IMG/VR virus record: IMGVR_UViG_3300049893_001295 | Coordinates: 1-30,337 of that record | Length of the DNA stretch: 30,337 nt | Origin: a virus | Strand: one strand, 5' to 3' | Shown here: one piece after another, positions 4,765-25,361 of the stretch | Position numbering within the stretch: the first letter of the stretch is position 1 | Layout of the letters: each line of letters starts with the position of its first letter | The notes under the pieces: generated by a model | What the model saw: the letters and a program-made list of their open reading frames with translations, nothing else | Databases searched by the model: none | Told to the model about the DNA's origin: nothing | Translations under genes and position numbers: made by a program

Positions 4765-6426
4765 ATGAAAGGGATTGAGATTATTGCGTTAAAGAACGCC
4801 CTTGCCGTTCAAAGAACGCCTTTGGAAGGCCACTGGGATGACCTTTCCTCTCATTTCATGCCCTTTCGCTTAGCCGGAGGCAACTTGCCAGACATCCCTT
4901 CCGCTTCAGAACTTGCCGATTCGGAAGGCCGCCGCTCCGCTTTGATCTTGGCTAACGGTCTAGCATCCCTGATCTTCCCCCGAGAATCGGTCTGGTTTGA
5001 ATACCAGCCGCCGGGCGAACTGGCGGACGACTTTGAGGCCGTCGCGTGGTATCGCAACGCATCCGCCACCGCCCGCGAATACCTCGAGCATTCCAACTTC
5101 TACGAGGAGATACAGGAAGCATTGATCGAGTCTCCCGTATACGGCACCGCCGCCTTGTATCTGGGCGAACTGGGCGACAGCGATGACATTCATTTCCGCC
5201 ATTGCCCCGTCAAATCCTACTACATCGGCGAGGATGCACGCGGCCGTGTGAATCGATTTGTACGCTGTTTGCATCTCACCGCATCACAAGCCGCTGGAGA
5301 ATTCGGCGTGGACCGCATCCCCGGCCAAGTCCGAGACCTCCTTTCAAAGCCTGATGGAGATTCTACCACGGAAGAATACATCCACGCGGTATTGCCTCGC
5401 ACCATTGCCCCGGACCGAGACGCCCCCGAAAACCAAAAAAAACCTTGGATTTCTTGCGTGGTCCACGCTTCCTCCGCACACATTTGCCAAGAGCTAGGTT
5501 TCGACGAATTCCCTTTCGCAGTGCATCGCTATCGGCGATTTGGCCGGACGGTGTGGGGATTTGGTCCGGGAACGACCGCGCTCGGCGACGCTAGGCAGCT
5601 CCAATACTTGAACGACCTTGCGGACGCCGCCGCAGAAAAATCCGTGTATCCTCCGGTGGTAGCTCCTTCCTCGATGGACGGGGAAATTGGCCTTGGTTCA
5701 GGGGAGATCACCTACGTGGACTCACAGAACGATCCGAATTCCGCATCCATCTTGCGCGAATGGGCCACGGTTTCCCGTTACGACATCGCCAAGGATCGGC
5801 TTCAGGACAAAAAGCAGGCTATCAATTCCGCTTTCCACGTCGACCTATTCCAGCTTTTCAGCAGCCGCGCCATGGAACGCCAGCCCATGACCGCGACGGA
5901 AGCTTCCCTTATTTCGGGAGAAAAGCTCACGCAGTTCTCCCCGGTGTTTGGGCGACTGGTTTCTGAATTTGCCACGCCCATTCTGACGAGACTGTTTGCC
6001 GTCCTTTTCCGTGGTGGCAGGTTTGGTCAACCTCCGCCAGGCGTTCTTTCGCCGGACGGGAAAGGCATCGCATCCCCCTCCCTTCTTTACAAAAACAGGA
6101 TCTTGCTGGCCATGCAGGAGCGTGCCAACAACTCGCTTGCCGCGTGGGTTCAGCTTGTTTCTCCTTTCCTTCAAGCCGATCCAAGCTTTATTGACACAAT
6201 CGACACGGGCCGCCTTGCTATTGACTCCGCACGATTTGCGGGCCTTCCTGAAAAATGGATACGCTCGCCGAAACAAGTGGCCGCCATCGAACAAGCAAGA
6301 GCTCAAGCCGCCCAAGCAGCTCAGGCCGCAGCCGTTGCAGAGCAAGCGACCAATGCCGCCGCCAATCTTTCGCAAGCACCGCCAAGCCTACGCGCTGCCG
6401 CTGAATCATCACTCCTTGACCAATGA
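4765..6426 (+). CDS. Portal protein (T7 gp8-type head-tail connector)
   Basis: The 553-residue product begins with the pattern of podovirus connectors: a helical region with WDDLSSHFMPFR, then RRSALILANGLASLIFPRESVWF near residues 55-80. Further along come YGTAALYLGE (around residue 128), a long middle domain including FGRTVWGFGPG and LNDLADAAAEKS, and GEKLTQFSPVFGRLVSEFATPIL. It would form the dodecameric vertex through which DNA is packaged and ejected. The last 50 residues are Ala/Gln-rich and probably a helical barrel or coiled coil. Length matches T7 gp8 (536). Its stop overlaps the following gene by ATGA. Confidence 0.92.
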   Translation: MKGIEIIALKNALAVQRTPLEGHWDDLSSHFMPFRLAGGNLPDIPSASELADSEGRRSALILANGLASLIFPRESVWFEYQPPGELADDFEAVAWYRNASATAREYLEHSNFYEEIQEALIESPVYGTAALYLGELGDSDDIHFRHCPVKSYYIGEDARGRVNRFVRCLHLTASQAAGEFGVDRIPGQVRDLLSKPDGDSTTEEYIHAVLPRTIAPDRDAPENQKKPWISCVVHASSAHICQELGFDEFPFAVHRYRRFGRTVWGFGPGTTALGDARQLQYLNDLADAAAEKSVYPPVVAPSSMDGEIGLGSGEITYVDSQNDPNSASILREWATVSRYDIAKDRLQDKKQAINSAFHVDLFQLFSSRAMERQPMTATEASLISGEKLTQFSPVFGRLVSEFATPILTRLFAVLFRGGRFGQPPPGVLSPDGKGIASPSLLYKNRILLAMQERANNSLAAWVQLVSPFLQADPSFIDTIDTGRLAIDSARFAGLPEKWIRSPKQVAAIEQARAQAAQAAQAAAVAEQATNAAANLSQAPPSLRAAAESSLLDQ

Positions 6427-6952: not shown

Positions 6953-7870
6953 ATGTCAGAAACTGTAAGCACCCCTGCCCCCTCCGAATCCGTTCCTGCT
7001 GGCATCCTAGACGCGGGCGCACCCGCGCAAACCCCTGCCTCTGCGCCGGACCAATTTTTCGGGCAACACATCTCAAAAGGAGGTAAATTCCAAGAAGGCT
7101 GGACAGAATCATTGAGAGCTAAAGGCTTTGAGAGGCTCGCCAACAAGGCCCAGACAGCAGGAGACGAATCGACTTTATTCCGCATCCTCGACGAAACCAT
7201 TGCCTTTACAGGGAAGAAGACGATCCCGACATACCCAGGCCCAGACGCGGATGACGCATCTCTTGCCGCTTATCGGAAATCCGCTGGTGTTCCCGACACC
7301 CCCGAAGCCTACAATATCAAGCCAAGAGAGCTTCCGCCGGGCGTAGAATGGGACGACGCATTGCAAGGATCCATTGCTCAAATCTTCCACAAGCACCACG
7401 TCCCCGAAGCAGCCGCAAAGGAACTCATACAAGCCCATGTTGCTTCACTTGCCGAGAAGTCAAAAGCGGCTGGAGACAGCTACGCCCAGCACATTACAAC
7501 CCTTGTTCAGCAAGCGGAACAAACCTTCCGCCAAGAATGGGGAGGCGACTACGAGCAGCGACTGGAAGCAAACAAGACGTTTGTTCAATCTCGATTCAAA
7601 CCGGAAGAGCTTTCCGATCCGACTTTGAGAGCAGCTCTTTCTCACCCTCAGATTGTTCGCGTGATCGACGAGGCCCGCCGATCTTTGCGTGAGTCTCCTT
7701 TGCCTGGTATTTCCGCGGAACACACCGGCGGATCTATGTCTCCCCGTCAGCAGGCGCAGGCTATCATGAAGGCTGATCCGCGCTGGGCCAAGAACCCAGA
7801 AGCGGCATCTAAGGTGAAGCAGCTTTACGAGCTGGAAGCCGCCCAAACACGCAGACAAGGGAGGCGATAA
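6953..7870 (+). CDS. Capsid assembly scaffolding protein
   Basis: The 305-residue product precedes the major capsid gene and has scaffold character: a low-complexity Pro/Ala/Ser N-terminus, then acidic, mostly helical sequence with few aromatic residues. It carries a stretch common in podovirus scaffolds, KTIPTYPGPDADDASLAAYR followed by GVPDTPEAYNIKP, and a long helix with HKHHVPEAAAKELIQAHV. The C-terminus (MSPRQQAQAIMKADPRWAK and ARG/LYS-rich end) resembles the capsid-binding helix of gp9-type proteins. It would template procapsid formation and then leave. A hairpin terminator follows at once. Confidence 0.88.
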   Translation: MSETVSTPAPSESVPAGILDAGAPAQTPASAPDQFFGQHISKGGKFQEGWTESLRAKGFERLANKAQTAGDESTLFRILDETIAFTGKKTIPTYPGPDADDASLAAYRKSAGVPDTPEAYNIKPRELPPGVEWDDALQGSIAQIFHKHHVPEAAAKELIQAHVASLAEKSKAAGDSYAQHITTLVQQAEQTFRQEWGGDYEQRLEANKTFVQSRFKPEELSDPTLRAALSHPQIVRVIDEARRSLRESPLPGISAEHTGGSMSPRQQAQAIMKADPRWAKNPEAASKVKQLYELEAAQTRRQGRR

Positions 7871-8096: not shown

Positions 8097-9017
8097 ATGC
8101 CTTACGACTCCATCATTCCAGACGCTTTCCCGACGCTTTATAGCGACATGTGGAAGCTAGAACTTCAGCAACTAACTTCACGCCTTGAATCTTTCGTCAA
8201 TACGGAAGTAGTTCACGGAGAAAGCAAGCGGTTTCAAAAGCTCCCCAAAGTGGTGGCGCGCGAAATCACAAGCCGATTTGGCGACACCGACCCGGATGAC
8301 ATCGATATCGAATTTCGCCATTTGTTTGTCGGATTTAAGGATTCTGCACACCGTGTCGACCGCCGCGAAGCAATGCAGCTTGGTAGCATCGGCGGGCCTC
8401 ACAGCCAGATCCTAAAACTACAACTTGCCGCCGCCTTACGAGACCGCGACAAGACCCTGATCGACGGCATTCGAGGAACCGCATCTACTGGCAAAACTGG
8501 CAATGTCCCAGTGGCTCTTCCAGCTGGCCAAAAAATCGCAGTCGACTTTGGAAGCACTGGCACGAACAACAACCTTACTTTCAAGAAAATCTTGGAAGTC
8601 ATGCGATTGATGGGCGTGAACGAAGTAGCCGGACAAGACGTTGACTCCGCTAGCCCTGTCACTTTGATCATCTCTCACAATCAGATTGCCAGCTTGCTGA
8701 AGCAGCCTGAATTCACCTCGGCAGATTATTCCGAGATCCGCCGCCTTCACAGCGGAACCGTGATCAACCTGATGGGAATGGCTATTCGCGCAGTTTCTCC
8801 CGCGTTGCTCCCATTCGCCAGCGGCACCAACGTGCGTTCTTGCTATGCGTTTGCCCGTGAGTCGGTGGTTTTCGGCATCGCTGAAAACCCACAAGCATGG
8901 GTTGATGAGCTGCCAACCAAGCGCCACGACATCCAGCTCCGAACAGAATGGGGCTGGGGATGCACCCGCCTCGACGAGGAAGGCGTCATTGAAATCGCTT
9001 GCGACGAAGACTTCTAA
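8097..9017 (+). CDS. Major capsid protein
   Basis: The 306-residue product follows the scaffold and has the size and feel of a HK97-fold capsid protein of podoviruses: a helical N-terminus (YSDMWKLELQQLTSRLESFV), then KRFQKLPKVVAREITSRFGDT, where the scaffold-capsid proteins of this group turn to beta structure. Further in comes HRVDRREAMQL and RDRDKTLIDGIRG, typical of the spine-helix region of T7-like and BPP-1-like capsid proteins. The C-terminal part (LRTEWGWGCTRLDEEGVIEIACDEDF) is characteristic of this family. It would be the most abundant virion protein. The ATG at 8097 follows a C-rich leader without SD. Confidence 0.93.
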   Translation: MPYDSIIPDAFPTLYSDMWKLELQQLTSRLESFVNTEVVHGESKRFQKLPKVVAREITSRFGDTDPDDIDIEFRHLFVGFKDSAHRVDRREAMQLGSIGGPHSQILKLQLAAALRDRDKTLIDGIRGTASTGKTGNVPVALPAGQKIAVDFGSTGTNNNLTFKKILEVMRLMGVNEVAGQDVDSASPVTLIISHNQIASLLKQPEFTSADYSEIRRLHSGTVINLMGMAIRAVSPALLPFASGTNVRSCYAFARESVVFGIAENPQAWVDELPTKRHDIQLRTEWGWGCTRLDEEGVIEIACDEDF

Positions 9018-9557: not shown

Positions 9558-9597
9558 AAGGGCCCGCCCGTGTTTGCGGGTGGGCCCTTTCGTTTTT
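9558..9597 (+). terminator. Strong rho-independent terminator after capsid unit
   Basis: AAGGGCCCGCCC (9558-9569) pairs with GGGTGGGCCCTT (9578-9589) with one G-T pair and an eight-base loop, followed by TTTCGTTTTT to 9597. It is the clearest terminator in the late region. It ends the capsid unit just before the tail-tube gene at 9612, which therefore needs read-through or its own promoter. Confidence 0.9.
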
Positions 9598-9611
9598 CCC
9601 CTTCTCTTACG

Positions 9612-12434
9612 ATGCCCGCCATTGTCAATAATCTCGACCTTGCCAACCAAGCCCTTGCCCTTCTCGGGGAAATGTCCATTTCCGCGCTAGGCACTGCCGG
9701 TGACAAGCCTTCCTTGTATGCCGAGCAATTCGTAGACCAAGCGATCGCTGAAACGCTAGGCATGCACGAATGGCGGGAAGCCATCGCAAGAGCTTCGATT
9801 TCCGCCGGTGCTGCCCCGACCTACGGTGCTTCCGCCACCTTTTCTCTTCCCGCTGGATGCTTGCGCGTGTTGGAAGTGAACGATTCCACCGCAGCCGATA
9901 GCACTTTGCCCTTCCACATTGAAGGATCCAAGATTGTCGCCACGGCCTCGCAGATCTTCGTGCGCTATATTTCCACAGTCGCTATCTCTGCCGCTGGCCC
10001 ACTCCTTCAACAAGCTTGCGCCGCCCGCCTCGCCACAAAGCTTGCCCTTCCTATTACTGGATCGAAAGAGCGCATGGCCGTCATGGAGGCGCTGTTCACC
10101 AAGACGCTGGCGGAAGCCAAGGCAAAGGACATAGACGAATCGCCGCTTGTCCGCATTGTGTCCGAACGTTTAGGAATCCAGCCGGCTACCATCTCCCCCG
10201 ATTTGCTCCGCAGGCTCCGCACGTTCGCCGAAGACGCACGCAAAGAGGTTTGCCGCATGATTTACATAGCAGACTCAACCCCTCTCTCCTCGCTCGATTC
10301 ATTGGCGCGGGAGGCTGTAGAGATCCGCTATTCTACAAAAGTCGCCACCGCCCTTTCCCTCCCATCCGCCAGCTTTCTGGAGGAGCTTTTCACTCGCAGA
10401 TTGAATGAGGCCCGGCTCCGCTCCTTGAAGACGTCCGTATTGAATAACCGCGTTCTATCGATGACCGGCGCTGACTTGGCCACCAAGGACTTGCCGGAAA
10501 CCACCATCACCGAGCTTGCGACATTTCCGGACGAAGCCCGCAAAGAGGTTTGCCGCATGATCTACGTGGACGAAACGACTTCGCTGGCTTCTATGGATAC
10601 GCTGGCGCAGGAATGCGTGGATATCCTCACGGCTCGCAAGATCGCAACGTTTTTTTCTCTTCCATCGCTTTCTGAGTTTGAATCTCTTTTCACGAAGAAG
10701 ATTCAAGAGGCGCGGGTCCGTGCCTTGCAAACGTCCGTTCTGAACGGGCGAGTCCTAGCCATGATTGGAAACGACCTTTCCACCAAAGAACTTTCCACGC
10801 TTATCTTGTCCGAATTTGCCGCCATGGCCACGGACGCGAAAAACGAAGTCTGCCGCATGATTTACGTGGATGAAACCACCTCACTGGCTTCGCTGGACTC
10901 CCTAGCGCAGGAGTGCGTGGACGTAAATCACGCCCGCAAGATTGCAACGTTCCTCTCTCTTCCCACGCTTTCTGAGTTCGAGTCCCTTTTCACGAAGAAA
11001 ATCCAGGAAGCGAAAGCCCGCAAGCTCCAATCGTCCGCGCTGAATAGCCGAGTCCTGTCCATGATTGGAGCCGACTTAACTAGGCACGACATATCCGACA
11101 CCGCCTTGACCGAGCTTGCCACCTACGCCGCCGAGGCCCGCAATGAAATCCTTAGAACCGGACTTTTTTCTTCTTCGCTGGCAATCGTTCGTTTGACTTC
11201 CTCGCTTGGGGCACTTGGTGGGAAGCCTTTCTCCTATACTTTGCCCGCCAACTGCATGGCGGTTGTAGAAGTCTCCGCCGATTCCGCTGGCGACACCTTG
11301 CTTGATTACGAGATATTCCAAAACGTCATCGCGGTGTCAGACCCCGGAAGCCCTTGGATCAGATACATCTCAAGCGTCGACACACACCTTGATCCCCTCG
11401 TTCAGTCCGCCATTGACGCGAGGATCGCCGCTAAGGCGTCAGCGTTCTTCTCGCTTCCATCCGCCCCGCAGATGGAAGAGCTGTCAGCACGGCGCATGAT
11501 GGAGGCGCGCAAGGCGGCGCTGAATGAATCCGACCTCTCCACCCAGATCCTTGCTCTTGTCGGCGACGATTTGGCGCGCGGTGAGCTCTCCCGCCATCAG
11601 ATTCGTCAATTCCGATCTTTCGGCGACGAGGCCCGCCGCGAGGTATTGAGTATGACTTACTCTCCGGAGGAAACCGAGCTTGTTGATATGGACGTGCTTT
11701 CCCAGGCGGCACAAGAAGCGCGACACGCTCAAAAGATAGCGGCGGCCCGCGCCCTCCCCTCCGCGTCAGCATTTGAAGAGCTGTTTCAACGGCGAATCAT
11801 GGAAGCCAAGACTCGCAAACTTCAAACCTCCGCAATCAACGGCAGGATTCTTGCACTTATCGGCGCGGATTTAATCACCCGCGATATCTCGTTCACCACC
11901 TTGACCGAACTTGCCGTCAATCTTGCCGAAGACGCAAAGAAAGAAATACTGCTCGCCCATCGTTGGAATTCCGCAACCAAGCGTGACGACCTCACTGCAA
12001 CCCAGCTTCCAGCAGTAGACGCCGCCTATCCTTACACCTATGCCATTCCGTCAGACTGCCTCCGCGTGATGGAGGTGAACGGGGAGGCATACGAAGCAGG
12101 GGAATCGCTTTACGATTTGGAAGGCGGCTTGATCTATGCCCATTCCCCCACTTGCTGGATCCGCTACGTGTCGGACGTTCCGCTTTCTTCGCTCGATCCT
12201 CTCATCCAGAATGCCGTCGACGCGAGGCACGCCGCCAAGATTTGCGCGTTTCTTGGTCTTCCGTCCTTGTCCGCCATGGAAGACCTGGCTCGCAAACGGC
12301 TTGCCGAGGCTCGCCAAGCTAATTCCGCCCCGCGTTCCGCCGATAATAACACAATTCACCGCGCCCTCGCTCGTTCCCGCATACTTTCCTCCCGAGGATA
12401 CCGCCGGAACCCGCTACGCATGGAAGACTACTAA
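9612..12434 (+). CDS. Tandemly multiplied tail tubular protein A (gp11-like gatekeeper)
   Basis: T7 gp11 is about 196 residues; this product is 940 and is a linear array of about seven gp11-like units. Unit 1 (residues 1-180) and unit 7 (745-940) carry the complete pattern: LANQALALLG-like start, W-R, a beta domain around the Leu-Pro-x-Cys-Leu-Arg-Val-x-Glu-Val segment, then Arg-Tyr-Ile-Ser and the C-terminal helical half with LPxxxxxEELFxRRxxEA. Unit 5 (480-644) keeps the beta domain, whereas units 2, 3, 4 and 6 (about 100 residues each) lack it. The protein should occupy the gp11 place between portal and nozzle, where T7 gp11 forms a 12-subunit ring. I start at ATG 9612 because the upstream extension would begin inside the terminator. 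How an array of seven folds into or around that ring is unknown. Confidence 0.88.
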   Translation: MPAIVNNLDLANQALALLGEMSISALGTAGDKPSLYAEQFVDQAIAETLGMHEWREAIARASISAGAAPTYGASATFSLPAGCLRVLEVNDSTAADSTLPFHIEGSKIVATASQIFVRYISTVAISAAGPLLQQACAARLATKLALPITGSKERMAVMEALFTKTLAEAKAKDIDESPLVRIVSERLGIQPATISPDLLRRLRTFAEDARKEVCRMIYIADSTPLSSLDSLAREAVEIRYSTKVATALSLPSASFLEELFTRRLNEARLRSLKTSVLNNRVLSMTGADLATKDLPETTITELATFPDEARKEVCRMIYVDETTSLASMDTLAQECVDILTARKIATFFSLPSLSEFESLFTKKIQEARVRALQTSVLNGRVLAMIGNDLSTKELSTLILSEFAAMATDAKNEVCRMIYVDETTSLASLDSLAQECVDVNHARKIATFLSLPTLSEFESLFTKKIQEAKARKLQSSALNSRVLSMIGADLTRHDISDTALTELATYAAEARNEILRTGLFSSSLAIVRLTSSLGALGGKPFSYTLPANCMAVVEVSADSAGDTLLDYEIFQNVIAVSDPGSPWIRYISSVDTHLDPLVQSAIDARIAAKASAFFSLPSAPQMEELSARRMMEARKAALNESDLSTQILALVGDDLARGELSRHQIRQFRSFGDEARREVLSMTYSPEETELVDMDVLSQAAQEARHAQKIAAARALPSASAFEELFQRRIMEAKTRKLQTSAINGRILALIGADLITRDISFTTLTELAVNLAEDAKKEILLAHRWNSATKRDDLTATQLPAVDAAYPYTYAIPSDCLRVMEVNGEAYEAGESLYDLEGGLIYAHSPTCWIRYVSDVPLSSLDPLIQNAVDARHAAKICAFLGLPSLSAMEDLARKRLAEARQANSAPRSADNNTIHRALARSRILSSRGYRRNPLRMEDY
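10152..11048 (+). repeat. Three tandem ~300-bp repeats within the gp11-like gene
   Basis: Units start at 10152, 10449 and 10749 and have lengths 297, 300 and 300 bases. Each encodes a block with CRMIY-(V/I), a Leu-Ala-x-(M/L)-Asp segment, then LSLP and (F)TKKIQEA or its equivalent. Short identical DNA words such as CTTTCTGAGTT and TTTTCACGAAGAA recur at the same place in the second and third copies, while many synonymous positions differ, so these are old, in-frame duplications. A fourth short copy is at 11544-11843, separated by a full-length unit at 11049-11543. Confidence 0.85.
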
Positions 12435-12445
12435 CTTCTCAAACA

Positions 12446-15040
12446 ATGCCTGAACTTATTGACCGAAGGATTTCCTTCAACGCGGGGGAGTTTTCCCCGT
12501 GGACCGACCCGCGTATTGATCTTGAAAAGTATCATTCCGCAGCGCGCACCCTCCTGAATATGGAGATCCTACCGTATGGTGGTGTTTTCCGCCGTCCGGG
12601 CACGGTGCTTTTCGGGGCGATCCACGACCAAACGGAAACGGCTCGCCTTGTTCCCTTTGTCTCAGGGGACGGAACCGCCTACGTATTGGAGTTTGGCCAC
12701 CAATGCTTGCGGATATGGACCACGGGAGATGCCCCCGCGCTTGTCATGGACGGCGCTTCCCCGTTGCTTATTGATACCCCGTATGAAGCCGGAGAACTTC
12801 GCGCGCTTTCCTTCTCTCAGTTAAATGATATCTTGTTCATTGCTCACGTAAATCACTCGCCAAAGAACTTGGCCTACTATTCGGCCACCTCGTGGCGTTT
12901 GTTCCCCTTCTCGCCCGACTACCCGGCATTGCTCCCCATCAATGAGACGGACATCAAACTGACGATTCCTCTTTCTTCCCCACCTTCTGGCTCTGCTTGG
13001 TCTTCCTCCACCACCTATGCGGCAGGCGACCAAGTAGAGTATACCACCGGAGGCGTGACCTACACCTTTGCCAGCCGATTCGGCAGCAATAAGAACAACC
13101 CGCCCGGAAGCTCTTTCAATCGGCTTATTCCTTTGGGTGGCGGGTATAGGTGGCTCACCAAGACCGTAAAAGAGCAATGGTGGCAAAACCTTGGCCCGTC
13201 CGCTTCCCTTGGCTCGTCCGCAGACTACGCCATCGGCAAACGCATCACGCTCACCGCATCGAACCCGCTTTTCTCCTCGAACATGGTGGATCAAACGTGG
13301 GCGCTCCAATACCCGCAAGACATCCTCACCCAATCTCTCCCAATCAATACGACGGCGGCGGGTGGAGTCTCTCCTGATTTGTTCGTTTCTGGGGCATGGT
13401 CCGCGCAGCTTACCGCAACCACATCGGGCAGCGGAACGTGGGAAACCCGCTTATTGGTCCAGAGATCATATGATCAGCTCAACTGGGACACCATCGCGGA
13501 GCTGCAGGCCAATAATTCCGACATTCAACAGCTCACGACAGGCAGCGAGTCATTCCCATGCTTCATCCGCCTGAAGCTGGCCGCCAAGTCCGGAACGATC
13601 CCTACCGACTTCACCGGCAGGCTCGACACCACGACGCCCGCCCGCATCGGCTTGGTTCGCATCATCGACTATCTGACCACCACGACCGTGCGGGCCATCG
13701 TAGAATTCCCCCTGCCGTCCGGAGCAGGTGCAACCTTGGACTGGTATGAAGGCGCGTGGGGAGGAAAGAACGGCCAGCCCACTTGCGTTTCTATCCATCA
13801 AGGCCGCTTGTTTTTCGCTGGGACAAAGACATCCCCTACCACTGTATGGGGTTCCCGCGTCGATCGATTTGGGGATTTCCGCATCGACACCGAGGCTGAC
13901 GCTGCGGTTTCCTACCAGCTCGCCTCCGACAATACTGGGCGTATACGGTGGATGATTTCCTCCAACGACCTCATCATCGGCACGGCTAACTCGGAATGGG
14001 CTATTGGCGTCAAAGGAAGCGAATCCATTATTCGCGCGTATCGCCACAGCAACATTGGAACAACTCGCGTTCAGCCCGTGCTTGTGGACGACTCCGTTCT
14101 ATTTATCCAAAAATCGCGCCGGAAGCTCAGAGAAATGGCGTGGAGCGGCCAGCTTGGTAGGTACGCCTCCGTGGACCTCACCATCTTGGCCGAACACGTA
14201 GGGGATAGCATGTTCAACGGCATTTCAGTACAAAGGAACCCCAACACCAACGTTTACATAGTCCTCAGCAACGGGAAGGCGGCTGTCATGAACTACGACC
14301 GCTCGCAGAACATCACAGGATGGTCGATCTACGACACCGGAAGCGATGAGTTCGAGTCCATCGCCGCCGTTGTCACAGGGTCGGAATCGGATGAGCTCTG
14401 GGCGGTGGTGAAGCGCACCATCGACGGCAATACGGCGCGCTACGTCGAGCGATTCAAAACCGAAAACTTGGCCAACTTGAAAACAGTCGACACCATGCAA
14501 GATGCGCTTGTTTACGTAGATGCCGCAGTTCAAGCCACGGTGCATGCTTCCGGCAATAAGATTGTGGGCGTATTCTCTTCCCTCGACTACTTGGAAGGCC
14601 GCACGGTTTCCATTGTGAAAGAAGGGGAACACCTTGGGAACTTCCCGGTATCTGGCGGAGAGATTGACGTTTCTTCAATCGGCCCTGTTTCGATAGGCTT
14701 GGTGACAGTCGGCTTGCCGTATGATTCCATCGTAGAACCGACATACCTGGAAAGAGACGACCCAAGGCTTCCCACGAAAGCCGGAAAGAAACGACTCCAT
14801 CGCGCCGTCATCGAACTTTACAAGTCGCGCGGAATCAAAGTCACCACCCTAGGCCCCTTCCAATTTACCAATTTGGACGTTGGCGCGTCCTTAGCTCCCA
14901 CCGAGCTATTTTCAGGGCTGGTGGAGCACTACGTTCAAGGCCGGACTTCGCGGCAGGAATCTCTACGGATGAAACAAGAAACCCCCTATCCATTCAACTT
15001 GCTATCCATCACCATGCGCTACAACGTGGAAATCGATTGA
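12446..15040 (+). CDS. Tail tubular protein B (gp12-like nozzle)
   Basis: An 864-residue protein with the classic start FNAGEFSPWTDPRIDLEKYH and GGVFRRPGT (residues 45-53), which is characteristic of gp12-type nozzle proteins. The C-terminal half shows RLFFAGTKTSPTTVWGSR, then GSESIIRAYRH and FIQKSRRKLREM, again the conserved core of this family. It would form the tapered tip of the short tail below the gp11-like ring. A CBM5/12-like stretch (W-S-S-S-T-T-Y-A-A-G-D-Q-V-E-Y, near residues 184-225) is inserted between conserved parts and could bind surface glycans. It starts 11 bases after the gp11-like gene. Confidence 0.92.
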   Translation: MPELIDRRISFNAGEFSPWTDPRIDLEKYHSAARTLLNMEILPYGGVFRRPGTVLFGAIHDQTETARLVPFVSGDGTAYVLEFGHQCLRIWTTGDAPALVMDGASPLLIDTPYEAGELRALSFSQLNDILFIAHVNHSPKNLAYYSATSWRLFPFSPDYPALLPINETDIKLTIPLSSPPSGSAWSSSTTYAAGDQVEYTTGGVTYTFASRFGSNKNNPPGSSFNRLIPLGGGYRWLTKTVKEQWWQNLGPSASLGSSADYAIGKRITLTASNPLFSSNMVDQTWALQYPQDILTQSLPINTTAAGGVSPDLFVSGAWSAQLTATTSGSGTWETRLLVQRSYDQLNWDTIAELQANNSDIQQLTTGSESFPCFIRLKLAAKSGTIPTDFTGRLDTTTPARIGLVRIIDYLTTTTVRAIVEFPLPSGAGATLDWYEGAWGGKNGQPTCVSIHQGRLFFAGTKTSPTTVWGSRVDRFGDFRIDTEADAAVSYQLASDNTGRIRWMISSNDLIIGTANSEWAIGVKGSESIIRAYRHSNIGTTRVQPVLVDDSVLFIQKSRRKLREMAWSGQLGRYASVDLTILAEHVGDSMFNGISVQRNPNTNVYIVLSNGKAAVMNYDRSQNITGWSIYDTGSDEFESIAAVVTGSESDELWAVVKRTIDGNTARYVERFKTENLANLKTVDTMQDALVYVDAAVQATVHASGNKIVGVFSSLDYLEGRTVSIVKEGEHLGNFPVSGGEIDVSSIGPVSIGLVTVGLPYDSIVEPTYLERDDPRLPTKAGKKRLHRAVIELYKSRGIKVTTLGPFQFTNLDVGASLAPTELFSGLVEHYVQGRTSRQESLRMKQETPYPFNLLSITMRYNVEID

Positions 15041-15965: not shown

Positions 15966-17677
15966 ACGTTCCGATACGCTATATTTCCGCCGGTCCCGCT
16001 CCCGCCGCCGTATCCCCGCAAGCCGCAATGACTTCAGGCGCAGCGATGGCTCAAATGGGAAAAACCCTTTCAGCCGTAGGAGAACAAGGCTTCGTTCTTG
16101 CCGAAAAGATCCGCCGAATCGATGAAGCGTCCAAGATGGAGGAAGCGTTCGCACAGATGGAACTGAAAGCCGCAGACTTCTCAATCGGCCTGATGAGGAG
16201 GGAAGACACGGAAAACTGGCCGAAGGAATGGGCAACCCTCTCGCAATCGTTCCAAAACGAATTGCCTGAATTATCGCCGGAAGGGAAGGCGAAATTCCGC
16301 AGCCGCTTCACCGACTGGAACACTAGACGCACGATCCATCTTGAGACGCTGGCCGCAAACAAGACCCTTGAGCTTGCCAACGCCCGATCCCAACACGCCT
16401 TGAACGTCTACAAGAAAAGCGGCGACTATGAAGGCATGCGGCAGGTCCGGCTCGGACAACTAGAGTCGGGGGAAATTTCCACCCCGGAATATGAAGAAGC
16501 AATTTTCGAGATCGCTTCAGAAGAAGAACACAACGCAGTGTTGAAAGAAATCGACCGAGACGCCAGAACATGGCTACAACATAACGTTGACGCTCCGCCA
16601 GGTTACGACCAGCCGCGATTCGCCCAGCTCCGCTCCTATGCCAAGGGACGCGCCCGTGAACAAAACTACAACCAATCGCAAACCGTCATGGGTGATATGG
16701 TTTCGGGGAAAATCGCCACCCTCGAAGAAATGGACGCTGCCACCGCTGGCTTGCCTGTAGACGCACGCATCGAGCACCTGAACTCGTTTGACCGATGGGA
16801 CAAGGAGAGAGCGGAGAGAGAAGCCGCCAAGCCGGAAAACATCAACCGCAACGTGGGCGAGTTCTACAAACTTTTGCGCGACTACAACCCGGACGACGAA
16901 ACCGCAGACCCTACAGCAATCCGTTTGGGATTCTTAATGGACTCGGTCCCGGCTAGCCCCATACGCGATCAAATGACTAGATCATTTTCCGCCGTAAGAT
17001 CCAGAAACAAGCAAGAAATCGAATACTCAAAAAGAGCTGCCTCCGACGCATTGGACGCAGCCTTCGAGGAAAGGCTTAAAGAACCAGAAGGCGAGAACAT
17101 ATCCCTTGCCGCCGCTCTGAAGTCGGGCTGGCTCAAGGACGCCAAAAAGCTAGAACTCGCCGGGTTCAACCCGTCCAAAGCGTACGACATCGCCCAGAAA
17201 GCCAAAAACGAAGGGGACGCCAAAGCCGCCGCCATGCTGAAAGCCAACTGGAAAGACCGCACGGAAACATCTGTAGGGCTTTCCCCTTTTGATGTGGCCG
17301 TGGCTGATGCTATCCGCAGCGAAGACGCAGCGATCAAATGGAAAGGCGATCCATCCCCCGAGAAAATGGACGCCTACCGCAAGGCCCTTGAGGAATATGG
17401 CAAGACCAGAACCAAGCTCTACGAATGGCTTGACGCCAACTCGAAAGCGGATGAAAACGCCATCTCGAAAAAGCTTGGAGAATTGGCAGGTCAGGCCGTT
17501 CGCTCAAAATTCCTTTCCGGCCTTGTCACTCCTCGACCAGTAAGGGAAACCGCCCCGCCCATAGAAGAATCAGATCCGCTCACCCCTAAGCTTCCGGACT
17601 GGCAACAAGACAAGATTGACGAAGAAATGGGCTCCCCGATCGATGATTCTCTCCTTCCCCCAATTCCCGAACAGTAA
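15962..17677 (+). CDS. Internal virion protein, gp15-like
   Basis: A 571-residue, highly charged, almost entirely helical protein between gp14- and gp16-like genes. I use ATG 15962 (MNVPIRYISAG), which overlaps the gp14-like stop by ATGA; an upstream in-frame extension would lie inside that gene. There is no transmembrane segment or known enzymatic motif; the length is shorter than T7 gp15 (747). Helical regions such as KIRRIDEASKMEEAFAQME and the acidic Pro-rich C-terminus fit a core protein. It would line the DNA ejection channel in the periplasm together with the gp16-like protein. Confidence 0.78.
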   Translation: MNVPIRYISAGPAPAAVSPQAAMTSGAAMAQMGKTLSAVGEQGFVLAEKIRRIDEASKMEEAFAQMELKAADFSIGLMRREDTENWPKEWATLSQSFQNELPELSPEGKAKFRSRFTDWNTRRTIHLETLAANKTLELANARSQHALNVYKKSGDYEGMRQVRLGQLESGEISTPEYEEAIFEIASEEEHNAVLKEIDRDARTWLQHNVDAPPGYDQPRFAQLRSYAKGRAREQNYNQSQTVMGDMVSGKIATLEEMDAATAGLPVDARIEHLNSFDRWDKERAEREAAKPENINRNVGEFYKLLRDYNPDDETADPTAIRLGFLMDSVPASPIRDQMTRSFSAVRSRNKQEIEYSKRAASDALDAAFEERLKEPEGENISLAAALKSGWLKDAKKLELAGFNPSKAYDIAQKAKNEGDAKAAAMLKANWKDRTETSVGLSPFDVAVADAIRSEDAAIKWKGDPSPEKMDAYRKALEEYGKTRTKLYEWLDANSKADENAISKKLGELAGQAVRSKFLSGLVTPRPVRETAPPIEESDPLTPKLPDWQQDKIDEEMGSPIDDSLLPPIPEQ

Positions 17678-17681
17678 AACG

Positions 17682-20600
17682 ATGATTCCGACAAGCCCCG
17701 CGCCCTCAGACCCGATAGACTTTGCCGCCGGAATCCCACAATCGTCTGCGCCCCCGGCGTGGATGCAGTCGCAACCCGTGGTTTCCCCCGTTAATCCATA
17801 CGACCAGCAGATTGCGGACTGGAGAAACCAGAACCTTGCCGGCATTTACAAGAAGGCATTGGGCCCTGCGCCCGCGTTTGAGCCGGAAGACATAGCCGTT
17901 TCCCCGTCCGTATCGGTGTCTCCCGAGGAATTGCACCAGTATTCCACCAATGACGCCCTGTTGTCCCTTTACTTGCAAGAGGGAGAGGAACTGCCCATGG
18001 ACGGAATGAAGCGCGCGGTGCTGCGCTCCACCGTCTCAAATCGCCTTTATGGACAAGACGCGCCGGACGAGTCCGCCTTGTTTTCTCTGGTCCAGAAAGA
18101 CGCACAAAGGCGCGTAGACCAATCGGAAATCACCCGACAAATCCAGTCCGCCGCCTACCTCAACGCCGCAGAAGCCACCCCCGACAACTGGACGCAAACC
18201 CGCGAGGCAATACGCCAGCTCCCAGGATATGATCCAACCAAGGATTCCGACTACTTGGAATCCTACTTATCGGCGCAAGACGAAATCGGCGAGAAAATAG
18301 ACCCGATCCGTGAGCAGGTAAGGGAGATGTTTGGCGAGATGAAAACTGGCAAGCTCGAAAACGTAGTTCTTGCTGCCTTCCGCCTCAATTCGTCAATCCC
18401 GCCGGAGTCGAAAGAAGCCTTTCGCGAAGCACTCGCCGCACGCATTGACGCAATGCCCGAAGCGGAGCGCCGAAGCTTTGGCCAGCTCGTCAAAGACACC
18501 ACTGCCCGCCATCTCATCGAAATGGCGGGAAAGGTAGGGCAAGAAGCTCTATCCGTCACCACAAATGCCGACCCGGACACAGGCGACGCATTGCAGGCCA
18601 TTGGCGCGGCCGCGGCTGGAGGAATGGGGGGTGTCTACGTGGCTCCCCCTGCTGTCCGCGAGGCACAAGAACAACGCGCCAAAGAATACCGGGAGGCGAA
18701 GCTCTTCGCCCGCGAAATGTCCGACATGTTTCAGCGGGACGTAGACCCTTTCAAATCCGCATTCAACGAAAGCGGAGAAATGGGCATCTTGGAATCAGCG
18801 GCGACCAACGCGCCCGGCGTATTACTCAACAGCCTTTCTATGGGCGTTCCCCTTGTCGGATTAGGGTATACCTTCCTTGGTGCTAAAGGTTACGCTTTTG
18901 ACAATCTTTCCCGACGATTCCAAGAATCGAAAATGTCTGAAGAGGATTCGGCCAAATACGCCGACTCTCTTTCCCTTCCCGTCGCTCTATTCCAGACTGC
19001 GCTTGAAAAAGTGGGCTTTGACTTATGGACCAACAAGATCCCCGCCGCTTCCGCTTTGCTACGCAAGTTCGACGATGCCATTGCCAATGTCCCGGCTCGC
19101 CTTGCCGCTAAAACCGCCGCTATCACCGCCGCGGAAACTGGCGTGGAATTTTTGCAAGACGTTTCGGAATTGGCTGTCCAAGACGTTGCTGCCGCCCTTG
19201 AACGAGATTTGCCATCCGTCGATTGGCAGAAAGAACTGAAAGGATCCTTCCGCAAGTATGGAGAAGTGGCAATCACCATGCTGCCTTTGGCTATCATCGG
19301 CGCGGCTGGTGGGCTATCGCGCGAAGCCCAAGCGTCAGCGTTTAAGCAAGCCACGCGTGACCAGAGGCTCGCCCTAGGCATCACTCCGGAAGATAGCGAC
19401 GCCATCGAATCAGCCCCGGGCCCCGTCTCGCTATTGCGCGCAGTGCAGCGAGCGATGGCCGCCGCAGATAAAAATTCGGCCACGGCAATGGAAGCCGCCG
19501 CCAGAGAGCAGCAGCGACTCACCTCGCTACGCCAAGCCGAAGAGGTGGGGACCCCCCTAGATTACCGCTGGCCCATCTTTCGCGCGGAAACGGACGGCAC
19601 GTTCTCAGTCCTCGACCCGACAACGCGCGAAACAGTAGCCGTTGCCCCAACGTATTCCAAGGCTATCCAAGCCGCCGAGGCTCATACTACCGCCCTCGAC
19701 CAACTCAGAGGAGACTTGTTCGTAAGGACCGCAGCTCTTCTCTCCGCCGGTGAACGAGTGGCCAAGCGGTCCGGAATGGCATCGGAAATCGATTTCACGC
19801 GAGTCTTCACCGACGAAGACGCCAAAGAGCTATCACCGCAAGCCGCGGAACGATACGCCGCAGAGAATGAGATTCTGGACCAAGCCGAAGGAGGAAGCGG
19901 GGACGCGGCTAGGGTGGTGTTTGGATACAACGCGACGGAAATCAGAAACAACCACCGCCAAGCAGTCATCAAACTTTTCTCAGGAGCCACGCTTGGAACC
20001 GTATTTCACGAGGAGTGGCACAAGCTCCGAGCCCGCGCCATGGCCGCAGGAGTCAGCACCCGCGACCACGACTTGCAACTTCTGCGCGCCTTTGACCAAG
20101 CCTATGGAGAGCACCGCATGAGGACGGGAGAAGGCAAACAAAAAGGCCGGAAGATCAAATTCGTGCCCGACAACTTTGCCGAGCAAACGCCACAACGACA
20201 AGAAGAGATACTCGACGAAGCAATTGCCGAAATCGCCGAGGTGGCCACCTACCTCTTCCCGGACCGAAAACTCAGCAAACACAACAAGCACGGACTCACC
20301 CGCGAATTCATATCGAAATACATTGGTGCAGTGGGAAGGATTGCCCCTGAGGCCACAAGAAACTTCCGCACCTTCATCCGCTCCATCCGCGACAGTCTGG
20401 GGCTAAGTCTCACGCGCGCCTATCAAGCCAAGAAAGCCATCAAGGAAGGGCGCTTAGACATTAGAGAGCTGGACAACTACATCGAAAGGTTGACATCCAC
20501 CCTTGACCAATCGACCCACGACAAAGCGGTGGACCAAATAGCCCAAGAACTCACAGAGTCGAACGTGGACACTCCATTTTCCCTTGGCTCCACCACCCCC

Positions 20601-23600
20601 GAACGAAGCGCACGCTACCTAGAGCTGGCCAAAGACCCCGAGGCTAACCGCGAAGATTTGCAGGCCGGAGCCACGCCGGAGGATGTCATGGCGAAATACA
20701 ACCTCACGCCCGAGCAGGATGCCGAATACCTTGCAGCCGTGGAACGCGGCGACTTGGAGACGGCGCAGCGGATGGTGGATGAGGCGGCGAAGGCGGCTGG
20801 GTATATCATGAGCCACAAACAACGTTCTCCACAGATCAATCCTCGCGGAGATGTTATTCTGTTTGTGGATGATGAAACCTCAAATGATTCATACGGTTCA
20901 TACACTTTTTCGGTCAAAGGGCTTCCTAAAGTTCCCGATTATGTGAAAGACTTTGCAAAATCCTACTTCGGAGAGGACGGCCAAACTGAGCCCGAAGACA
21001 TTATCGAAAGTGCGCAGGCGTGGGATGATAGGCAGTTTGTATCAGATTTGTGGCAAGAGTTTGGAGATAGGTTTGAGAACGAAGGAATTATCGGCTTCAA
21101 AACCCCAGATGGGGGCGTGGTATTCGACCGAGTAACCGCACTAGAAAACGGTCAAATCAAATCCGCCGACCCCGTAACCTACGACGAACAGGGCAACGTG
21201 ATCCCGCTCTCGCAGCGTTTCGCTGAGGCTAAAGACGCGATCAGCTTCTCTCTCGGCCGATCTACCGTCACTCCCACGGCGAACACCCGCGCATACCAAG
21301 GGGCGGAAGGCTCGCCCAGCGTCATCGGACCGGCGTCTTTCTCCATCGGCGCATGGCACGCCACACCGCACAAGGTGGACAAGTTCGGCCTCGACAAGAT
21401 CGGCACTGGCGAGGGAGCGCAAGCGTATGGCTATGGGTTGTATTTTGCTGAGTCTGAAGCAGTGAGCGGACGAGGCGGAACTTATGATTCACAGTTCAGC
21501 AACTCGATCCGGTATAATGGAGAGACTTTGAATTGGGGCGATGAACCAACAGCCCGAAGCATTGCAGCTGAATTGATCGAAAGCTATCGCGGAGATCCAG
21601 ACGCTAAAAAGTTAGCGGCTTCCGACGCTGAGGGGTATGAAAACGCCAAGGAAATCAAAAAAGAGGTTCGCTCGCTAGATCCCTCCAAGATCGAAAGAGG
21701 GGCAAACATTTACAGGGTTAAATTAGATGTGAATGATTCGGACCTGCTGGATTGGGATAAGCCATTTAATGAGCAGCCCAAATCCATTCAAGAAATAATT
21801 AACAAACGACAATGGGAAAACCAAGGTATTGGCGGTTATTGGATGGACAAATCTTTAGAAAATCCTTCTTATAACGGCGGTGACCTTTATCAGCGTTTAT
21901 CAGGAACCCTCGGTTCTCCAGAAGCGGCAAGTGCTTATTTGCGAGAAGCAGGCATCCCCGGCATCCGCTACCTCGACGGAAATTCCCGCGCGGACGGCCA
22001 AGGCTCCTACAACTATGTCATCTTCGACGAGTCCAAGATCAAGATCACGGAAGAGAACGGAACGCCGGTGGCAATGGAGGAAGTCTCATTCTCCCTCGGA
22101 CGTGCCGGAGTAGCGCAGGAGATGGCGAACATGGCGTCCACGCTAAGCCGCGCCCCAATAAGGAGGTTGCGCGTCATGCGCCGAATCTCATCCGAATTTG
22201 CCATGATTTCCCAGCGGGCCCGGCAAATGGAGGCGCTGGAAGGCGTGCCGCTAGGAAAGGCAGAGCTAAAGCGGCAAGCGTCCCTAAAGGAAGAACTGTC
22301 GCTAGATGAAAAAGTCGCCGAGATCCACAGCAGGTTTGGAGACCTCCTCAACAACGACGACCTTACACGCCTGCGGGCCCAACCGATCCACGCATGGCTT
22401 GCACGTCCCGGCTCTCACCTCCACGGCGTCTTAATGTCCCGCAAGCAATACTTAGCTCATGCGTCCAATTTGGACGGCGTAGGCATGTACGACGGCAGCG
22501 AGTCAGTTTCGAGAACGCTATTTGGAGGGCAGCAAACCCCAGACATCGCCGCGCGAGGACTTTACGCGGAGGGGCTCATCCCTGACAGCACGCCGGAAAG
22601 CCTATGGGAGGCACTGGCAAAAGAAGCGAACTCGGTCTATCGCAACAAGGAACACCTTAAAAAGGCTCAGGAACAAATCCGCCAAGCCAAGATCGACGCC
22701 AAAAAAGAAGCAGCGGACTGGCTGGCCGCGCAAACAATGGGCGGCAAGAAGGTATACAATCCCAAGCGGGAGATCCTCGACGCCCTGAAGATGCTCGACG
22801 CCATTGACAAAGCGCTACCTCCATCGGCAAGGGTTGGCGGCCACACCCAAATAGCCAACATAAACGCGGCAAACAACAAAGCGTTGCTCAAGTTCCTCAA
22901 AGTCAAGATGGCAAAGGCATACACGAACCTCGAAGCGTTTTTGCGCGAAGAATACGGCAAGGAAATGCAAGACATCCTGAAGCGGATTGCCCCTAAAGGC
23001 GATAAGCCAGGAGAGAAGCCAACCGGAAATATACACCCGGACGCCTACCGCGTCTTGTCGCACGCCCAAAAATACTTGTCCAAAACATTTGAGGAGGCCG
23101 AAACCGAGGCCGACAGATTGCTTGCACTGGCGGACAAAGAGCAGACAAAGCCGGAGGATGCAGATATTTATCGTGCGCAGTCTCACATGGTGGGGCTCAT
23201 GGGCGCATGGATGTCGGCACCGGCAGAGCGCAGAGCCACAGCGGTAGAGGAGGCCACCAAGATTTACTTGCGCGGGCTGTCTCACCTCGCAATCAAGCGG
23301 GCAAGGCGAAAACTCCACCTCGACTACCTAGCCAGCTCGGCGGCTGGAGGAATCAAAAACTCAGGCGAGCGCATGGCGCGAATCGAAGCCAAGGACAAAG
23401 AGGCCGGAATTTTTGGCACCATAAAAGGTATTGCCTTCCGGGCGTTGTCCTTTGGGCAGGTTTCTAACGCGCTATTCGGGGAGGCCTCAGCATTTGCCAA
23501 ATGGGCAAACCGAAGCGAACTCTCGGCGTCAAACCTATTTACCGACAACTACGCCAAACACACGGACGGTTTCCAAGCTCTCATCCAAGAGTTGGCCGGA

Positions 23601-25361
23601 AGCCCTTACAAAGCAGAGAAATTACTGCACCGCATCCAGAATGAACGATCGCTTGAGGTTGTAGACGGCAGGAATAACCTCCAAAAATACACGGAGGCGG
23701 AAGCGATGGGCTACGTCATGACCTACCGACAAGAAGACGGAATGCGGCACATGCAAGGTACAGAGTCCTCATCGTGGGGCTGGACGGATGAATCAATGGA
23801 AGAGCTGGAAAGCAAGATGTCGCCGGAGGCAAAAGCCATCATGGAATGGATGTCGGCTAACTACGTTGCGGGGTACCCTCGCATCAATGAGGTTTACGAG
23901 CGAATCTGGGATTTCCCGCTGCCGTCGATCCGTAACTACAGCCCGCTTACCCTTATATCTGCCAACGCGCAAGACAACGCCGGGATTGTCGACCCTGTCA
24001 CCATGCAAGGCGTGGGCGCAGGCGTGACGCCTTCCTCTTTCCGAAATCGATCCGCCACCGCGATTGCAGAGCCGGAATCCACAGACGCGATTGCCCTATA
24101 TTTTCGGCACTGGCGACAAATGGAGCACTTTATCGCATACGGCGAGCTTGCACGCGACGCCATTGCGGTGACCGGGCGAGGGGAAATCCGCAAAAAGCTC
24201 CTTGGTATATCCAAGACAGCGCAAGGCACCCTTGGCGATTGGCTCGACTTTTTCCGGTCCGGAGGGGTGCGCGCAACATCCCGCGCCCCAATCGAGCAAG
24301 CGGTATTGCAACGCGCGCTTGGAAGGATGTCCGCCGCCGTGCTTGTCGGCAGGGTGTCGGTTATAGCGATGCAAAGCTTACAAATTGCCGCAGGGATCTA
24401 CAAAATGCCCATGGCGTCTTACCTTTCGAGGTTTGCAAGGCTAACTACAGGCCGCCTCAACTACTCGGAGGCGTTCCGCTCGGCCTACATCCAGCGCAGG
24501 ATGCACGAAATGCCCCCTGCTTTACGCGATAGCATCGCCGGATTGTCGTCATCCTCCCCTAACGTAGTGAGACACTACGCATCCCGGATGGCGTCTTACT
24601 CCATCCCGACCGCTGATGCCGTTTTTACCGCGGGGACATACGCTATACTTTACGACTACCACCTTGCCGACGCTAAAAAACAAGGGGTCCCAGAAGCAGA
24701 CAGAGCGGCTTACGCCCAAGACATGGCGGAGCTTGTTACCGACCAAATAGCCCAGCCTATGCGCCCAGGTGCTCGGTCGATGTGGGAGTTGCAAGGACAG
24801 GCAAACCCTTATTTTCGAGTTTTGCATAACTTCGCTTCGGACCTCCGCCAGAAGCTATCCATCCCGATCTACGAAATTGCAAGGACGGACAAAACGGCAT
24901 CAGAAAAAGTCATACCCGCCTTGCGGGCGTTGGCCGTCACATGGGCGGTTGGCGGAGTGCTCACTACCTTGGTGCGGGCCATCGTGCGCGACATGCGGGA
25001 CCCCGAAGACGACGAGCTGTTCGACGAAAAAAACTGGGACGTGCAAAGATTGGTTGCAATGGCAGCAACTGCACCGCTTGGCGGCATACCGGTATTTGGC
25101 GACATGGCGGAGGCGGCTTTGTTTTCGGCCCTCCGCATGTATCTCCCCGATGACAATATGCTCGACACGGTTCCCAAAGCCTACCGGGCGGCCATGTCAC
25201 TTGCGGCAGAGTCGGGAGACCCGATGAAAGACGTGCAAACGCTGATGACTGGCTTGGCATTTTTCTCGCCGTTCTTTGCCGGGGCTACCCCTTTTGCGAA
25301 CCTTATCAAGGATTCCATCGACCTGATCGACAACGCAACCGGCCCAGAATCCGAAGATTGA
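17682..25361 (+). CDS. Giant gp16-like internal virion/ejection protein with polyvalent domains (zincin-like and ADP-ribosyltransferase-like)
   Basis: At 2559 residues this is about twice T7 gp16 (1318). The N-terminal 750 residues are helical with hydrophobic patches (about 385-405 and 526-543). Then come an HEEWH zincin-like motif at 776-780 and a linker with the common polyvalent-protein phrase (EYLAAVERGDLETAQRMVD, near 1010-1030). Next are a domain ending QIKSADPVTYDEQGNVIPLS, an ADP-ribosyltransferase-like domain (about 1225-1455), a Lys/Glu-rich helical region, and a hydrophobic C-terminal domain (about 2210-2559) resembling large polyvalent protein-associated domains. No lytic transglycosylase signature like that of T7 gp16 is evident. 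Position after gp13/14/15-like genes indicates it is packaged and ejected with DNA. I start at ATG 17682, four bases after the gp15-like stop. Confidence 0.85.
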   Translation: MIPTSPAPSDPIDFAAGIPQSSAPPAWMQSQPVVSPVNPYDQQIADWRNQNLAGIYKKALGPAPAFEPEDIAVSPSVSVSPEELHQYSTNDALLSLYLQEGEELPMDGMKRAVLRSTVSNRLYGQDAPDESALFSLVQKDAQRRVDQSEITRQIQSAAYLNAAEATPDNWTQTREAIRQLPGYDPTKDSDYLESYLSAQDEIGEKIDPIREQVREMFGEMKTGKLENVVLAAFRLNSSIPPESKEAFREALAARIDAMPEAERRSFGQLVKDTTARHLIEMAGKVGQEALSVTTNADPDTGDALQAIGAAAAGGMGGVYVAPPAVREAQEQRAKEYREAKLFAREMSDMFQRDVDPFKSAFNESGEMGILESAATNAPGVLLNSLSMGVPLVGLGYTFLGAKGYAFDNLSRRFQESKMSEEDSAKYADSLSLPVALFQTALEKVGFDLWTNKIPAASALLRKFDDAIANVPARLAAKTAAITAAETGVEFLQDVSELAVQDVAAALERDLPSVDWQKELKGSFRKYGEVAITMLPLAIIGAAGGLSREAQASAFKQATRDQRLALGITPEDSDAIESAPGPVSLLRAVQRAMAAADKNSATAMEAAAREQQRLTSLRQAEEVGTPLDYRWPIFRAETDGTFSVLDPTTRETVAVAPTYSKAIQAAEAHTTALDQLRGDLFVRTAALLSAGERVAKRSGMASEIDFTRVFTDEDAKELSPQAAERYAAENEILDQAEGGSGDAARVVFGYNATEIRNNHRQAVIKLFSGATLGTVFHEEWHKLRARAMAAGVSTRDHDLQLLRAFDQAYGEHRMRTGEGKQKGRKIKFVPDNFAEQTPQRQEEILDEAIAEIAEVATYLFPDRKLSKHNKHGLTREFISKYIGAVGRIAPEATRNFRTFIRSIRDSLGLSLTRAYQAKKAIKEGRLDIRELDNYIERLTSTLDQSTHDKAVDQIAQELTESNVDTPFSLGSTTPERSARYLELAKDPEANREDLQAGATPEDVMAKYNLTPEQDAEYLAAVERGDLETAQRMVDEAAKAAGYIMSHKQRSPQINPRGDVILFVDDETSNDSYGSYTFSVKGLPKVPDYVKDFAKSYFGEDGQTEPEDIIESAQAWDDRQFVSDLWQEFGDRFENEGIIGFKTPDGGVVFDRVTALENGQIKSADPVTYDEQGNVIPLSQRFAEAKDAISFSLGRSTVTPTANTRAYQGAEGSPSVIGPASFSIGAWHATPHKVDKFGLDKIGTGEGAQAYGYGLYFAESEAVSGRGGTYDSQFSNSIRYNGETLNWGDEPTARSIAAELIESYRGDPDAKKLAASDAEGYENAKEIKKEVRSLDPSKIERGANIYRVKLDVNDSDLLDWDKPFNEQPKSIQEIINKRQWENQGIGGYWMDKSLENPSYNGGDLYQRLSGTLGSPEAASAYLREAGIPGIRYLDGNSRADGQGSYNYVIFDESKIKITEENGTPVAMEEVSFSLGRAGVAQEMANMASTLSRAPIRRLRVMRRISSEFAMISQRARQMEALEGVPLGKAELKRQASLKEELSLDEKVAEIHSRFGDLLNNDDLTRLRAQPIHAWLARPGSHLHGVLMSRKQYLAHASNLDGVGMYDGSESVSRTLFGGQQTPDIAARGLYAEGLIPDSTPESLWEALAKEANSVYRNKEHLKKAQEQIRQAKIDAKKEAADWLAAQTMGGKKVYNPKREILDALKMLDAIDKALPPSARVGGHTQIANINAANNKALLKFLKVKMAKAYTNLEAFLREEYGKEMQDILKRIAPKGDKPGEKPTGNIHPDAYRVLSHAQKYLSKTFEEAETEADRLLALADKEQTKPEDADIYRAQSHMVGLMGAWMSAPAERRATAVEEATKIYLRGLSHLAIKRARRKLHLDYLASSAAGGIKNSGERMARIEAKDKEAGIFGTIKGIAFRALSFGQVSNALFGEASAFAKWANRSELSASNLFTDNYAKHTDGFQALIQELAGSPYKAEKLLHRIQNERSLEVVDGRNNLQKYTEAEAMGYVMTYRQEDGMRHMQGTESSSWGWTDESMEELESKMSPEAKAIMEWMSANYVAGYPRINEVYERIWDFPLPSIRNYSPLTLISANAQDNAGIVDPVTMQGVGAGVTPSSFRNRSATAIAEPESTDAIALYFRHWRQMEHFIAYGELARDAIAVTGRGEIRKKLLGISKTAQGTLGDWLDFFRSGGVRATSRAPIEQAVLQRALGRMSAAVLVGRVSVIAMQSLQIAAGIYKMPMASYLSRFARLTTGRLNYSEAFRSAYIQRRMHEMPPALRDSIAGLSSSSPNVVRHYASRMASYSIPTADAVFTAGTYAILYDYHLADAKKQGVPEADRAAYAQDMAELVTDQIAQPMRPGARSMWELQGQANPYFRVLHNFASDLRQKLSIPIYEIARTDKTASEKVIPALRALAVTWAVGGVLTTLVRAIVRDMRDPEDDELFDEKNWDVQRLVAMAATAPLGGIPVFGDMAEAALFSALRMYLPDDNMLDTVPKAYRAAMSLAAESGDPMKDVQTLMTGLAFFSPFFAGATPFANLIKDSIDLIDNATGPESED
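20007..20021 (+). other. HEEWH zinc-metalloprotease-like motif in gp16-like protein
   Basis: Residues 776-780 read HEEWH in the context LGTVFHEEWHKLRARA, which fits the HExxH signature of zincins. A downstream helix with ILDEAIAEIAEVATYLF supplies possible third ligands (Glu). If active, it could process the polyprotein or peptides in the host. Only the motif is seen; activity is inferred. Confidence 0.6.
21351..22050 (+). other. ADP-ribosyltransferase-like domain (ART-PolyVal type) in gp16-like protein
   Basis: This section (about residues 1224-1456) starts AWHATPHKVDKFGLDKIGTG, continues AYGYGLYFAESEAVSG, and ends YLREAGIPGIRYLDGNSR plus YNYVIFDESKIKI. These blocks follow the ADP-ribosyltransferase domain known from phage polyvalent proteins, with the H of motif 1, the GYGLYF strand of motif 2, and the terminal IFDE strand. 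Codons here are more A/T-rich than in the flanking gene, consistent with a module acquired from elsewhere. Substrate unknown. Confidence 0.75.

Follow-up and report, generated by a model that had tools for sequence, protein, structure and literature searches.

The window, that is, the whole stretch of 30,337 bases that was analysed, is a podovirus record (IMG/VR IMGVR_UViG_3300049893_001295) with the usual gene order: DnaB helicase, terminase, portal, protease-like head protein, capsid, adaptor, nozzle and internal-virion genes. The adaptor gene is flanked by those for capsid and nozzle, as are the genes for T7 gp11-like adaptors (PHROG_394). The features at and around this locus, with full (F) and short (S) units of the adaptor numbered U1 to U7, are as follows.

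4765–6426, + strand: portal (head-tail connector), PF12236, 1e-87
6953–7870: protease-like head protein, phrog_458, 1.6e-5
8097–9017, + strand: major capsid protein, upstream of the adaptor gene, PF19821, 1e-46; phrog_3437
9558–9589, + strand: intrinsic-terminator-like hairpin just 5′ of the adaptor gene, 14-pair stem and T run
9612–12434, + strand: seven-unit gp11-like adaptor gene, 940 codons, 940 aa
9612–10157, + strand: U1, F, canonical N-terminus, PHROG_394 5e-28
10158–10451, + strand: U2, S, without the beta dock; unit alignments, predicted helices, gp11 profile
10452–10751, + strand: U3, S, 68% identity to U4; predicted helices, gp11 profile
10752–11051, + strand: U4, S; unit alignments, predicted helices, gp11 profile
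11052–11546, + strand: U5, F, PHROG_394 3.7e-9; structure model
11547–11846, + strand: U6, S; unit alignments, model with four helices and no strands
11847–12431, + strand: U7, F, C-terminal tail, PHROG_394 8e-23; structure model
12446–15040, + strand: nozzle, gp12-like, directly 3′ of the adaptor gene, phrog_376, 2e-149

The adaptor frame is open from the ATG at 9612 to the stop ending at 12434, and with its capsid and nozzle flanks it bears out the initial annotation, which had placed a protein of 940 residues at the gp11 position. The ATG is the likelier start, because the alternative, a GTG at 9570 giving a longer ORF, sits within the terminator hairpin. This hairpin (9558–9589) is strong, lies between head and tail genes 22 bases upstream of the adaptor start, and recalls the terminator found between genes 10 and 11 of T7. 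A Shine-Dalgarno sequence is not clear at 9590–9611, 5′ of the ATG. Further downstream, the nozzle protein (12446–15040) carries a weak chitin-binding-like CBM_5_12 motif at residues 184–207 (1.7e-4, under the cut-off), and a 2581-aa ORF in the internal-virion region (17616–25361) has an endolysin-like part at residues 1362–1513 (phrog_873).

Seven homologous units, arranged F-S-S-S-F-S-F, make up the adaptor; they start at residues 1, 183, 281, 381, 481, 646 and 746. This confirms the number, order and coordinates of the units as first proposed, the boundaries given then being within a few residues of the computed starts. U1, U5 and U7 each match PHROG_394 on their own and possess the beta "fibre dock". 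U2, U3, U4 and U6 (98–100 aa) lack this dock and keep the helical part, and they belong by homology to the multiplied gp11-like adaptor that the initial annotation had claimed; an NCBIfam search gave only matches far under the cut-off. Protein identity among the units is 32–68% overall, being 44–68% between S units (for example, 55% over 82 residues for U2 and U3), 47% over 152 residues for U5 and U7, and 38% over 128 for U1 and U7. In local alignments of unit against unit, scored as z against 100 shuffles, values reach 49: they are 31–49 among the S units, 43 for U5 and U7, 29 for U1 and U7, and 12–20 for S units against U5 and U7, where the N-terminal part of the S units aligns to the matching part of these two F units. 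The weakest pairs are those of U1 with U2, U3, U4 and U6 (z 3.5–8.3). On a gp11 profile built without the window sequences, U2, U3 and U4 outscore all their shuffles and U6 by itself does not; the S alignment matches this profile (hhalign) with E = 3.8e-5 over 62 columns, which are the last two helices.

For the structure of U5-U6-U7 (F-S-F), AlphaFold2 was given an alignment with the other window units and three-unit relatives. The model has a mean pLDDT of 75 and a pTM of 0.40, and informs on the folds within units, not on their mutual placement. U5 and U7 are composed of helices and a six-stranded beta region, U6 has four helices and no strands, the final 33 residues are of low confidence, and the linkers between units are only 3–4 residues long. 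An up-down four-helix bundle is predicted for U5 to U7, and Foldseek against the PDB returns adaptor or connector proteins of podophages (Carin-1, LME-1, PhiM1, HRP29, T7, KP32) together with a ring protein of phicrAss001 (9efk at TMt 0.69; also 8ck1, 7qog, 8vb4 and 6r21). The U2-U3-U4 (S-S-S) model (pLDDT 72) repeats the helix pattern. A T7-type beta fibre dock is absent in P22, Sf6, HK97 and SPP1, and the S-S-S model gave no significant fold match in the PDB, solved dock-less adaptors (HK97 gp6, SPP1 gp15) included. Of the gp11-like fold expected for residues 181–744, the part in U6 is therefore recovered, but U2 to U4 are predicted to be gp11-like on the grounds of sequence homology and predicted helices.

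Relatives of the exact 940-aa protein or of its S units were found neither in viral_contigs nor in genome_contigs, but long multi-unit adaptors do occur in uncultured phages. One adaptor unit was present at all of the 80 loci of a nozzle-protein survey and in each of the isolates examined. A capsid survey yielded few multi-unit cases among 72 loci with an adaptor, namely L090 (F-F-F), L107 (F-F followed by a fibre-like region), L098, L099, L101 and L102, and a follow-up scan with the kind represented by the last four collected 66 loci. Most of these have three consecutive genes with 2 + 3 + 1 = 6 units, a type absent from genome_contigs; L220 has 3 + 1 units, L178 4 + 1, and L175 3 + 3 + 1, its last unit being cut at the contig end. 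L223–L230 have a two-unit gene, which the nozzle gene follows directly in every case where the contig extends far enough, and several records of 38–40 kb give six adaptor matches as well. The multi-unit loci thus comprise L090, L107, L174, L175, L178, L220–L230 and the three-gene group, and relatives hold 2, 3, 4, 5, 6 or 7 units. Arrays of two and six are the commonest in an automatic tally, which miscounts truncated or broken loci (L180, L174, L019); the counts stated here were read by hand. No clear S units are seen in the multi-unit adaptors of these other uncultured phages.

Between consecutive adaptor ORFs of the relatives, stop and start overlap as ATGA at 72 of 96 junctions. The gene breaks fall inside a unit, 5′ of its last helix, and this missing helix stands at the N-terminus of the next protein (L098–L219, e.g. 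L194:10993 and L194:12654). Such overlaps and breaks keep the order of units without a single covalent chain, and the split genes look like a case of split-unit complementation between chains. Several phages have their second and third genes in one frame with a single stop between them, which suggests fission of a longer chain. Some chains continue from adaptor units into a fibre-like C-terminal region matching tail fibre PHROGs (L107:3485-5686, L194:12654-14129), and the last-unit dock of L223:8228-9511 contains a CBM_5_12 chitin-binding-like stretch at residues 297–325 (8e-7, above the cut-off).

Long adaptors are not always multi-unit. Those of L004:5150-5980 (ct3Et533), L042, L081, L151, L152 and L166 are single units lengthened to about 280–340 aa, and the ct3Et533 protein (276 aa) was rejected as a two-unit candidate because it has an insertion near the dock start, not a second unit. 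PHROG_9239 (741 positions, "tail tubular protein") was also rejected, since no match extends beyond its first 190 positions; it is exactly as long as a Vibrio VP2 protein that contains Ig-like domains. Isolates with apparent two-unit tblastn coverage span one unit length among the matches listed, and inspection of one of them, Klebsiella phage BUCT711, showed a single unit. Foldseek against BFVD found unannotated long viral proteins (583, 512 and 1139 aa) that align along the whole F-S-F model. Judging from this structural match, by which A0A6J5LSM0 and A0A516L4P3 are likened to it, relatives appear to have been deposited in UniProt/BFVD already, without description.

As hmmalign truncated the S units, their placement in the large tree is unreliable, and a separate core tree was used for them. 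In the core tree the S units group together (support 98.8/92) within a clade consisting of window units only (99.3/100). The S clade lies inside U2–U7 and therefore fits a single loss of the beta domain, or dock, before the S units multiplied, in line with the stepwise duplication and beta-domain loss proposed earlier. In the large tree the window units form one clade, apart from the large group of relatives and from L090, which is placed as a neighbour of the window clade with weak support. Since the three are separate, the trees indicate that unit multiplication arose at least twice, and probably three times. Within the large group, the first units of different phages are orthologues of one another, as are the last units, and inner units are gained or lost one at a time. 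Median omega in this group is 0.10–0.20 for units 1–6, so that purifying selection is similar at all six positions, with no relaxation in the inner units relative to the end units. Orthologous end units with inner units that come and go are the pattern predicted if inner rings can be stacked between a pair of specialised end rings.

The 940-aa product is a tail adaptor of the T7 gp11 or podovirus ring-protein type with its units fused in tandem. Our preferred reading, held tentatively, is that it forms a multi-ring barrel with covalently joined rings; a tail tube lengthened by the extra units is the leading idea. Each unit would help to form a ring around the DNA channel, and copies of the chain would build a barrel of several rings from portal to nozzle. 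Crassviruses make such a barrel, of five rings, from separate paralogues; here the rings would be linked covalently. Fibres or other appendages would attach to the docks of the F rings, and the S rings would act as plain spacers. U7 may be nearest to the portal, because it alone has a C-terminal tail, at the place of the T7 helix that embraces the portal. Stacking is supported by the finding that in the large group inner units are under as much constraint as end units. Somewhat more doubtful is the stricter form, in which a single polypeptide spans seven successive rings and fixes their order and number genetically, the 2–7 units of the relatives tuning barrel length and dock pattern. The main difficulty is the predicted linkers: 3–4 residues are awkward for simple stacking and would leave room for lateral arms. 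Moreover, an up-down four-helix bundle has both ends on the same side, and side-by-side packing would therefore suit it better than end-to-end packing.

The strongest competitor, which we regard as unlikely, takes up this point. In this arrangement each chain would contribute a single unit, probably its first or last, to an ordinary 12-fold ring, and its remaining units would make up arms or a collar around the tail, which hold fibres or spread binding modules. Besides the short linkers, which suit a lateral row of bundles, it can draw on the relatives with fibre-like C-terminal regions or with a chitin-binding-like insert in the last-unit dock, and on the very large size of an assembly of 12 × 7 stacked units. 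However, four S units lack the dock and yet keep the ring-forming helical part, and inner units are no less constrained than end units. Less probable still is a pseudo-symmetric single ring, in which fewer chains each occupy several neighbouring positions (2 units × 6 chains, 3 × 4, 4 × 3 or 6 × 2). The short linkers would allow it, 2, 3, 4 and 6 divide 12, two of these numbers being the commonest in the automatic tally, and the three F units of the window would give 4 × 3 F positions. A rule that the unit number divides 12 is nevertheless rejected by the 5-unit (L178) and 7-unit (window, L175) arrays, near relatives differ by single units, and the spacing of F units along the window protein is irregular; the ring of fewer, longer subunits envisaged in the initial annotation is accordingly disfavoured. 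That a polyprotein is cut into single adaptors, which form ordinary rings in larger amounts, is improbable: the phage does encode a protease-like head protein (6953–7870), but the genes of relatives break inside units, before the last helix, and not between them, the products would not be equivalent as the units differ and those of the S type have no dock, and no cleavage site is known.

The age of the copies bears on the last alternative. U3 and U4, the most similar pair, share 21 of 35 fourfold sites and have a dS of 1.9 and a dN of 0.25 (omega 0.13). For the other pairs in the window, synonymous divergence is near or at saturation, and omega is 0.13–0.22 where measurable. By these measures, the duplications are old, and purifying selection acts on the copies. 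Even though this is a single metagenomic record with no close relative of exactly this protein, it is therefore highly improbable that an assembly artefact made the repeats, because misassembly would yield near-identical copies, U3 and U4 differ at 14 of 35 fourfold sites, the units are only 32–68% identical, and multi-unit adaptors recur across many contigs.

The sequences suggest that a ring module has been multiplied in some phages, and it perhaps builds a longer or more heavily decorated tail. If so, a repeatedly evolved multi-unit adaptor that gains and loses units and docks would show phages varying tail length and appendage number by duplication of one ring module, and tail length could be predictable from sequence. 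Such an adaptor is also a natural test of the matching between the 12-fold portal and the 6-fold nozzle.

The gp11 protein of T7 assembles into a 12-fold ring on the portal clip, with the beta domain serving as fibre dock and the C-terminal helix wrapped around the portal (PMC6702177). "Adaptor" is a better name than the "gatekeeper" used initially, since the DNA gates of T7 sit in the nozzle protein gp12 (PMC6702177). The window protein resembles T7 gp11 (PDB 6R21; PMC6702177) and PHROG_394 in the sequence family of its F units, the gene position between capsid and nozzle, the helical bundle with a beta dock and the C-terminal tail. It differs in having 940 aa and seven units, four of them dock-less, instead of one unit of about 190–200 aa per chain.

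The form had been thought undescribed. In the open-access literature no account of tandem gp11 was found, and the only paper in which the terms occur together deals with gene 74, a different crAss gene that is duplicated; but uncultured phages have 2–7 units, and crassviruses stack paralogous gp11-like rings. When the multi-ring barrel of crassviruses was described, other podoviruses were known with a single adaptor ring only (PMC10172136). The closest precedent for the tandem adaptor is the 23-nm barrel of phicrAss001, in which four paralogous gp11-like proteins supply five dodecamers stacked on one another; the authors connect it with a longer tail, with fibre hubs and with the storage of cargo (PMC10172136). 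Its rings R1–R5 (PMC10172136; PDB 7QOG/7QOI) share with the window several gp11-like units per phage and a fold match to the F-S-F model. They are encoded by separate paralogous genes with 15–31% identity and a beta domain in each, whereas the window has one ORF, hence one chain, with dock-less units, and its relatives have partly separate genes. The multi-unit adaptors of uncultured phages also have gp11-like units in tandem, encoded at the corresponding place in the gene order; unlike the window adaptor, they are mostly split over two or three genes, and their units are phylogenetically separate from those of the window.
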